Part shown: in pieces, positions 53,851 through 57,211 of the stretch
Position numbering within the stretch: position 1 is the stretch's first letter
Layout: every line of letters begins with the position of its first letter
Source of the DNA: Streptomyces sp. RPA4-2
GTDB taxonomy: Bacteria > Actinomycetota > Actinomycetes > Streptomycetales > Streptomycetaceae
NCBI RefSeq assembly: GCF_012273515.2
Contig: NZ_CP050975.2
Location: 2,294,001-2,358,000 of the forward strand
Direction of reading: 5' to 3'
Length of the DNA stretch: 64,000 nucleotides
The notes under the pieces: generated by a model
Told to the model about the DNA's origin: nothing
Databases searched by the model: none
The model's input: only the letters and a program-made list of their open reading frames with translations
Position numbers and translations under genes: made by a program

Positions 53851-53927
53851 GGGCTGCCTCCGATGGGTGCGGTCGGATCAGGCGCGCACCCGTACAGGGG
53901 GGACACACCTAAGTGACTGCACAGTAA

Positions 53928-53959
53928 CCACCCGGTCGATCACCCGACCGACCGGGTGG
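53928..53959 (-). terminator. Terminator hairpin after gbn
   Basis: CCACCCGGTC (53928-53937) pairs with GACCGGGTGG (53950-53959), beginning about 30 bp beyond the gbn stop codon. There is no T tract. Confidence 0.65.
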
Positions 53960-53990
53960 CCACCACCGAAGCCGATGGGGACGCCCGGCC

Positions 53991-54212
53991 TCAGGCCGAG
54001 GCGGCCTTCTTGCCCCTCGTCGCTCCGCCACGCCCACGAAGCGTGACGCCCGACTCGCTGAGCATCCGGTGCACGAAGCCATACGAACGGCCGGTCTCTT
54101 CGGCCAGCGCTCGAATGCTCGCACCGGAGTCGTACTTCTTCTTCAGGTCTGCCGCGAGCTTGTCGCGCGCGGCGCCGGTCACCCGGCTGCCCTTCTTCAG
54201 AGTCTCGGCCAC
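53991..54212 (-). CDS. gbn: GATC-binding nucleoid-associated protein Gbn
   Basis: A 73-residue basic protein with one helix-turn-helix: DKLAADLKKKYDSGASIRALAEETGRSYGFVHRML is its core (residues ~17-51, described as region). The Gly/Arg/Lys-rich tail is RGRGGATRGKKAASA. Length and sequence match SCO1839 of S. coelicolor, reported as the nucleoid-associated protein Gbn that binds GATC sites and affects development and antibiotic production. GTG 54212 has GAGGAGG 6 bp upstream. The 397-bp upstream region holds a hairpin (54415-54447) and six clustered GATC sites (54482-54549), so self-regulation is likely (inference). Confidence 0.9.
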   Translation of the reverse strand: MAETLKKGSRVTGAARDKLAADLKKKYDSGASIRALAEETGRSYGFVHRMLSESGVTLRGRGGATRGKKAASA

Positions 54213-54414
54213 CCGTGCCTCCTCATGGGAAGTGCGCTCTGGACTTCTCATGATCACCCCTCAAGGGCTTCATGGCCAGCCATTCGGCAAGGTCCGTGAG
54301 ACAAGGTTTTGACGACAGGAGCCCGTCCCCACGAGTGGAATCACAGGTTCCGCCCCTGGCCCTTCGTGCGGCCGAACGGGTTCTTCGGCAAAGTGCCAGG
54401 TCAGCGACGCACAA

Positions 54415-54447
54415 CGGCCGAGCCCTTGAGAACAAGGGACTCGGCCG
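54415..54447. other. Strong hairpin in the spacer upstream of gbn
   Basis: CGGCCGAGCCCTTG (54415-54428) pairs with 54433-54447 (one bulged A at 54439) around the tetraloop AGAA: a 14-bp stem. It lies about 200 bp upstream of gbn and 160 bp downstream of the ABC-F stop. It could terminate the ABC-F transcript, sit in the gbn leader, or belong to a small RNA. The spacer 54213-54609 holds no protein gene I can support. Confidence 0.55.
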
Positions 54448-54481
54448 AGAAATCGATGTACGACACACCTCGGTACGAGGA

Positions 54482-54549
54482 GATCTCACACAGATGATGG
54501 ATCACGGATCGGCCGAATGATCCATACGCAGTGGATCAGGCATTCGATC
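54482..54549. promoter_or_regulatory. Cluster of six GATC sites upstream of gbn
   Basis: GATC occurs at 54482, 54500, 54507, 54519, 54534 and 54546. At about 72% GC one GATC is expected per roughly 400 bp, so this density is far above chance. ATGGATCA (54497-54504) and TGATCCAT (54518-54525) also form a perfect 8-bp inverted repeat. One more GATC lies at 54252, nearer the gbn start. Since Gbn binds GATC, this looks like an autoregulatory or nucleation region. Confidence 0.7.
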
Positions 54550-54609
54550 ACGTCGTGCTGACGGCCGTCCCGGGGCTGCCCATCAGGTCCCCGGGGGCTG
54601 TACGAGGGC

Positions 54610-56208
<1,599 letters not shown>

Positions 56209-56299
56209 GGACAGACTCCTGGGCAGGGTCGTTGGCGGGGTGGGCGGCTGAGGACGTTCCCGCCGTCTAATGCGCGAGGAGAATGGCCATGGGCCAAGT

Positions 56300-57211
56300 C
56301 TAACGGGGCGGTGCAACCACTTTTCCTGGGCGCGGGTGTCCGGCACTGTGACGCTCGCCCCGCTGTCCGTTGCCCAGCGGGGCGCGGTGCGGGGCGACGA
56401 CGCCCAGGTCGTCCACCGCGACGAGCCCGGCCGTCCAGCGGTCCTCGGCGGGGCAGGGACGGGCGATCAGGAGCACCGCGCCGTGACGAAGGGCACGTGC
56501 GGGCGCGAAGCGGCAGCCGGGCCGGGCGGGCAGGATCCAGCGCAGGTCGCCGTCGGCGACGCGGTAAGCGGCGACACGTTCGGGGGTGATCACGGCGAGC
56601 ATGCCGCCGCCCAGGAGCCGCAGCACGCCGGTCGCCTCGTGGTCCGCGAGCCATCGGGCGGCCTGGGGCAGCGCCCGGTGCCAGCGGACGGCGCTCCCGT
56701 CGCGACGCGTCGTGTCGGTGACCAGACCGTCGTCCCAGAGCGCGATCGCGTGCCCGCGCGCGGGCAGCACGGCCAGCGGGCGGCGGCCCTCGCGCCCGTA
56801 CGTCCAGCGGGCGCGGCCGGTCGTCGCGTCGTAGGCCTCGACGGCGGCGGCGGTCGTCCGCAGCGGGGGCCTCGACGGCGGCGGCGTGCCCTGTGCGTGC
56901 TCCACGCGCGCGTGGAGCACGAGCCGGTCTCCGTAGGGCGCGGGACGTGCCTGGTGGGCGACGGCGAGCAGCAGCGCGACGGCGACCGCGACGACGACGA
57001 GGAGCAGGGCGCGAGCCGTACGGCGGCGGACCGCGGGGGGAGGCGGCCCGGGGACCGTTCGGCCGTCGCCGGCCTGGACGGTCCGAACGGACCCGTCGGG
57101 CCGAGCGGACCCGTCGGCGTGTGCAGACTCCATGGTCCGTACAGACTCCATGGTCCGTACAGGCCCAGCCGTCCGCGCGGACCGCGTCGCCCCGACCGGC
57201 ACAGTGACCAC
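56300..57211 (-). CDS. Membrane-anchored PQQ-binding-like beta-propeller protein
   Basis: A 303-residue protein. A disordered Pro/Ser/Arg-rich N-terminus (~1-75) precedes one membrane helix ([19 protein letters not shown]) and an extracytoplasmic domain with PQQ-like blade motifs ([39 protein letters not shown]). Two cysteines (GCRF, RPCP) could form a disulfide. It is too short for a complete propeller. GTG 57211 was chosen because AAGGAGG lies 8 bp upstream; function unknown. The 5' part contains the near-repeat [12 protein letters not shown]. Confidence 0.75.

Follow-up and report, generated by a model that had tools for sequence, protein, structure and literature searches.

Upstream region of the Streptomyces gene gbn: a conserved GATC array and a GATCAT site on the likely -10 box are consistent with negative autoregulation

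Autoregulatory operators that overlap the -10 box are a known general kind at the genes of repressors and nucleoid proteins, and H-NS/Lsr2-type proteins are known for nucleation-and-spreading sites. Gbn (SCO1839) binds GATC, and the best site is GATCWT, according to Du et al. (2022; PMC9239103). In the ChIP-seq data of that study the S. coelicolor summit at the gbn gene itself was located at -326 at 25 h, with an enrichment of 67.75-fold, and at -324 at 48 h, with 58.18-fold, which was the highest enrichment among the genes shown in its Table 1. The peak was 547 bp wide at 25 h and had its summit at the position of the array described below, not at -43. Gel shifts (EMSA) showed binding of Gbn to the S. 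coelicolor fragment from -561 to -239, which contains eight GATC. In the same species the deletion of gbn advanced sporulation by 2-5 h, while a constitutive promoter delayed it by about 17 h (PMC9239103). Since over- and under-expression of gbn shift the timing of sporulation in S. coelicolor, the way in which Gbn sets its own level is of importance.

In the window (the whole 64-kb stretch of DNA that was analysed), gbn lies at 53991-54212 on the minus strand and encodes 73 amino acids from a GTG start, with the ribosome-binding site GAGGAGG just upstream. The first-pass annotation had taken the gene downstream of a GATC cluster for gbn, and this identification holds: the product is a single-HTH protein that matches Pfam PF19575 HTH_58 with E 3.8e-33 and 113.6 bits against a cut-off of 23.8, as scored on the 88-aa open reading frame containing gbn. 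An in-frame search gave one match for gbn in this genome, and the protein is 88-99% identical in 40 genomes of the same genus. A sequence search against solved structures gave no match for Gbn at E <= 0.01. With 34.7 bits (E 1.5e-8), far short of the cut-off of 140, the HTH showed a weak similarity to the NCBIfam model for the CRISPR DNA repeat-binding protein Cbp1. The upstream gene on the same strand encodes an ABC-F ATPase (54610-56346) and ends 60 bp before the array, and the order on the minus strand is ABC-F ATPase, array, hairpin, gbn, and then an enoyl-CoA hydratase-like gene. The 29 bases before the gbn start (54213-54241) were near-invariant in 108 Streptomyces loci (mean identity 0.990), a conservation which exceeds what a ribosome-binding site seems to require.

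For the comparison, 260 loci were examined, and gbn was placed in every one of them by the in-frame search. After 13 loci with an identical 350-bp upstream region were dropped, 247 were kept, comprising 108 from Streptomyces, 45 from other genera of the family and 94 from other families. Eighty of the 260 loci, all titled Streptomyces, were best-scoring matches and therefore lean to close relatives, and S. coelicolor itself is absent from the compared sequences. Outside the family, 94 of 119 hit genomes were used (14 loci and 80 fetched regions); not used were the eight hit genomes of genus g20, which scored low, a single one at the edge of a contig, and a further 16, for the most part from genera already represented. 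Another gbn search gave loci or fetched regions from 70 of 149 hit genomes. A later search supplied a set of fresh loci, which outside the family were the best-scoring 38 of 83 new hit genomes, 36 of the 38 being from families seen before (f17, f18, f19, and f32).

A perfect Gbn consensus, GATCAT, is present at 54250-54255 on the minus strand, from -43 to -38, and forms a putative -10 hexamer. The putative -35 hexamer CTGGCC, of the class xTRGCx, lies at 54274-54279 on the same strand, so that a TRGC box stands 18 bp upstream of GATCWT. The GATC of this site is intact in all 108 Streptomyces loci, and each of them has GATCATG at the position aligned with -43, TRGC before it, and 19 bases between. 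Beyond Streptomyces the surrounding sequence diverges; a forward GATCWT within 110 bp of the start (-110 to -12) is found in 45/45 loci of other family genera and in 63/94 loci of other families. The TRGC box is placed at the same distance from GATCWT in 44/45 of the former and in 35 of the latter 63, as in 108/108 Streptomyces. This distance is common to 14 of the 19 families concerned, while any other distance is found in at most three. By chance, a 47-bp stretch of this genome would be expected to contain 0.012 copies of GATCAT on one strand. A scan of 53990-54700 for sigma-70 consensus promoters found none. A coding explanation of GATCATG was rejected: the ATG within it shares the gbn frame in 97/108 Streptomyces, but not in 33/45 loci of other family genera or in 21/38 other-family loci with the heptamer. 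Position, spacing and conservation indicate that the proximal GATCAT is likely the -10 box of the gbn promoter. This conserved site at -43 on a likely -10 box is new here; it was not mentioned in the first-pass annotation and is probably more telling than the array.

The combination was described as a composite, xTRGCx-N18-NANNNT with GATC overlapping the -10. It was first spotted by eye and then counted on the same data, and only the fresh loci are out of sample. The composite occurred in 108/108 Streptomyces, 44/45 loci of other family genera and 50/94 loci of other families (17/30 families). The controls in the 94 other-family loci gave 0/94 for each of three bands upstream and no more than 11/94 for any other spacer from 10 to 26. 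It was missing in 44/94, and in 13/30 families no member has it; 42 of these 44 loci had no promoter-like match and two had a match without GATC in the -10. Outside the family, 36 of the 38 fresh loci had the composite, among them both loci of a new family, and so had 2/2 fresh Streptomyces loci; the controls outside the family gave 0/38 for each of three bands and no more than 6/38 for any other spacer between 12 and 24. The two fresh loci without it were L295 and L297. Because 36 of these 38 loci come from known families and all are best-scoring matches, the result is chiefly evidence that the pattern persists within families. TRGC-N19-GATCAT occurs at 29 places in this genome and hence is not specific to gbn by itself; the composite has its weight because its place upstream of gbn is fixed. 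Counting GATC close to the start carries less weight than the composite, since other tetranucleotides were also frequent: between -60 and -14, the majority of members had GATC in 20/30 other families, CATG in 15/30 and TCGA in 11/30, the frequency of CATG being in part due to its presence in GATCATG.

The proximal GATCAT could have been kept purely as a -10 box, its agreement with the Gbn consensus being a coincidence and gbn not being regulated through it. Such a reading is helped by the fit of GATCAT to NANNNT and by the fixed spacing to the -35-like box. A G or C as the first base of a -10 box is unusual, yet this base recurs here. Moreover, the 50 other-family loci with the composite fall into two registers: 35 have GATCAT, and in 15 the -10 reads GAAGAT or CATGAT and is followed by C, which forms GATC in the other register. 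The second register was also found in 17/36 fresh loci, all of one family. Given the two registers, it is GATC itself that seems to be kept on the -10. In the expression data, just 9.5% of the strongly bound promoters were significantly changed in the gbn mutant, compared with 6.9% overall (PMC9239103), which again suits a site that serves as a -10 box alone. On balance we regard the coincidental match as unlikely.

The distal array consists of six GATC at 54482, 54500, 54507, 54519, 54534, and 54546 (array 54482-54549, no strand assigned), from -337 to -270 relative to the gbn start. All six were found where the first-pass annotation had placed them, and so was its perfect 8-bp inverted repeat, ATGGATCA at 54497-54504 and TGATCCAT at 54518-54525 (54497-54525 in total, no strand assigned), in which four of the eight pairs are automatic from the GATC palindrome. 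The array is upstream of gbn as had been claimed, but not immediately, as 269 bp, including a strong hairpin, separate it from the start codon. The full consensus GATCWT is present at one of the six sites, 54519, which reads GATCAT on the minus strand (-310); the other five lack it on either strand. The interval from -561 to -239 in this genome likewise contains eight GATC, and the array brackets the published summit. The sequence thus holds what Du et al. (2022) found in Gbn-bound regions, a GATC core and at least one full GATCWT (54519, plus the proximal 54252). According to the same authors, GATC without the WT extension showed no raised coverage in vivo (PMC9239103). Since one of six array sites has this extension, the strong peak may rest on -310, helped by its neighbours. 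Binding of Gbn to the array is already in print for the orthologous S. coelicolor locus, in another strain than this, and the ChIP-seq signal which had been proposed as a check on the cluster is the one given above.

The cluster was kept when the upstream regions of other Streptomyces were aligned. In the 500 bp upstream of gbn, a 68-bp stretch with three or more GATC was present in 101 of the 108 Streptomyces loci; four or more were reached in 95, five or more in 67 and six in 19. Of the seven other palindromes that use each base once, none had four or more in 68 bp in more than 1/108. The single sites were intact in 70 (-337), 93 (-325), 107 (-310), 25 (-298), 103 (-291), and 94 (-273) of the 108 loci. 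Two of them, -310 (the perfect GATCAT) and -291, form a core pair 19 bp apart (54500-54522, minus strand), which was found within -420 to -230 in 103/108 Streptomyces and in 17/45 loci of other family genera (six genera). In these other genera the pair sits in a recognisable core, GGATCATTCGGCCGA...GTGATCC. At least four GATC in 68 bp were present in 7/45 loci of other family genera and in 4/94 of other families. Because the array is rare outside the genus while the 19-bp pair persists, the array looks like a Streptomyces feature which may have grown from an older core pair.

The array is part of a conserved block at 54455-54549 (minus strand, -337 to about -243), upstream of which the loci do not align. 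Measured against this genome, the mean identity of the 108 Streptomyces loci was 0.856 for -337 to -270 and 0.860 for -269 to -240, compared with 0.128 for -398 to -346, just before the array, and 0.884 for the 3' end of the ABC-F gene. The GATC columns of the block reached 0.883 (0.920 for the five common sites), against 0.842 for the other columns. Since the lead of the GATC columns is so small, the block also carries information of another kind, and other factors may bind there. It might therefore be a composite element whose main readers are other developmental regulators and of which GATC is one component. The conservation of -337 to -243 at non-GATC positions, e.g., CATCTGTGTGAG, and the AtrA site predicted by Du et al. 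in the gbn promoter region (PMC9239103) are in line with this. Nevertheless, the strongest Gbn enrichment in the published table has the array at its centre, and some other genera vary the flanks yet keep the 19-bp GATC pair (the same 17/45 loci). A main role for other regulators is therefore, in our judgement, quite unlikely.

Between the array and the gbn promoter there is a strong hairpin without a T run (54415-54447, minus strand). The minimum free energy of 54405-54455 was -29.0 kcal/mol (z -6.25), and the hairpin was kept, with a value of -15 or lower for -248 to -195 in 104/108 Streptomyces. It probably terminates transcription of the ABC-F gene upstream; a terminator search found none with a T run at the locus. 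If the array were transcribed, it could act as an RNA element, for instance as a leader or small RNA or within the ABC-F terminator, and the strong, conserved hairpin after it would fit. The fold of the array RNA itself, however, hardly stands out from those of shuffled sequences, 14 out of 200 being as good (z -1.65). An Rfam family at the locus was rejected, as the sole match in 53900-54720, to a miRNA family, was far below the gathering score and outside the array. An RNA role is thus very unlikely. The inverted repeat GGAATCACAGGTTCC at 54337-54351 has arms better conserved than its middle in Streptomyces. Going by the AtrA motif, this repeat could be the AtrA site predicted by Du et al.

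The first-pass annotation had also suggested a nucleation site for spreading Gbn filaments at the protein's own gene. The array is the densest GATC group of the window, and its orthologue has the strongest published peak among the genes shown, both of which could be expected of such a site. The proposal finds no support in the published tethered particle motion, where S. coelicolor gbn promoter DNA of 685 bp with 10 sites gave a very small RMS increase and no compaction (PMC9239103). In addition, the EMSA complexes were discrete, three being formed on a 50-bp DNA with four motifs (PMC9239103). Filament nucleation is accordingly a highly improbable explanation of the array.

To what extent the density of the array is unusual depends on the background. 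The 64-kb window contains 370 GATC, compared with a shuffle mean of 274, and 464 kb of the same genome (the window plus 20 sampled stretches, 400 kb of them outside it) contain 2675, or 5.8 per kb. This is one per 173 bp rather than the one per 400 bp that had been assumed. In the window the array is the only 68-bp stretch with six GATC, and nowhere else are there four or more; in the 400 kb sampled outside, no stretch had six and two had five (L280:5872 and L280:17493). A genome-wide pattern search (9.86 Mb) for three GATC with gaps of at most 14 bp gave 592 tight triples, and among the first 100 of them, which reach 2.00 Mb (the first fifth of the genome), there was at least one other run of six GATC, 65 bp long, at 1403961-1404025. 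Uniqueness of the cluster in the genome is ruled out by this run; counting GATC bore out that so dense a cluster is rare. The DNA of the second run appears coding, as judged by eye. Because GATC is denser than assumed and another six-site run exists, density by itself is not decisive, and it is location and conservation that make the array notable. That it is a chance cluster of a common tetranucleotide, for which the higher background and the second run might be cited, has hardly any probability, since each of four of its six sites, which lie in non-coding DNA, is preserved in 93 to 107 of the 108 Streptomyces loci, and Gbn occupies the orthologous region in vivo (PMC9239103).

With a probability of about 0.6, we favour a two-part Gbn control region upstream of gbn, with negative autoregulation at the putative promoter and the distal array as an auxiliary element. 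In sequence terms, a site of the protein's own consensus lies on the putative promoter and is conserved in orthologues. The distal array, with up to six GATC and one perfect GATCAT, would be heavily occupied by Gbn, as it is in S. coelicolor and as conservation suggests here. Accumulating Gbn would then compete with RNA polymerase for the GATCAT -10 box and lower its own synthesis. From beyond the terminator-like hairpin, the array would most likely hold several Gbn molecules next to the promoter, which is the weakest step, and might raise local occupancy or tune the threshold of the feedback; neither a filament nor a loop would be needed.

Any repression of gbn by Gbn may be weak, since gbn transcription is strongly up at 45 h compared with 24 h and bound promoters change little in the mutant (PMC9239103). 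Du et al. took their expression data to mean that Gbn acts at promoters in a subtly suppressive way; no expression change is entered in the gbn row of their Table 1, presumably since the gene is absent from the mutant (PMC9239103). Of the autoregulatory array first proposed, conservation is confirmed and binding in vivo and in vitro holds for the S. coelicolor orthologue, while autoregulation itself is plausible. In the ermE-promoter strain of that study, -157 to +4 were replaced (PMC9239103). On the layout of this genome such a replacement removes the -43 site and keeps the array, and the phenotype therefore cannot separate a loss of feedback from a stronger promoter. In the available text of Du et al. 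(2022; PMC9239103) the word stem autoregulat is absent, and no description of the conservation or spacing of the array or of the -43 site on the -10 box was found. A literature search, mostly outside subscription journals and including the Gbn passages of PMC11942623 and PMC11272600, found no study of gbn autoregulation.

A wider reading, to which we give slightly less than an even chance, is that the -10 box doubles as a Gbn operator, in two registers, in over half of the families that carry gbn and were sampled from the class that includes Streptomyces, and forms a self-limiting switch. Streptomyces would then have expanded an older GATC pair into an array of five to six sites that sets the level of the feedback and thus the timing of sporulation. 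The -43 site turns autoregulation into a specific, testable claim about one site, which would apply to many actinobacterial families.

The locus can be compared with three known systems. With the gbn region of S. coelicolor it shares orthology, the distance from the start codon and the eight GATC in -561 to -239; binding in vivo and in vitro was found there, and this genome is that of another strain (PMC9239103). Like the operators that overlap the -10 box of repressor or nucleoid-protein genes, it has a binding site for its own product on a likely promoter element; it differs from them in an extra multi-site array about 230 bp further upstream, behind a hairpin, and repression by Gbn is putative. 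It resembles the nucleation sites of H-NS/Lsr2-type proteins as a cluster of sites for a nucleoid-associated protein, whereas Gbn, small and with a single HTH, recognises GATC sequence-specifically and, in the published assays, has little effect on DNA conformation in vitro.
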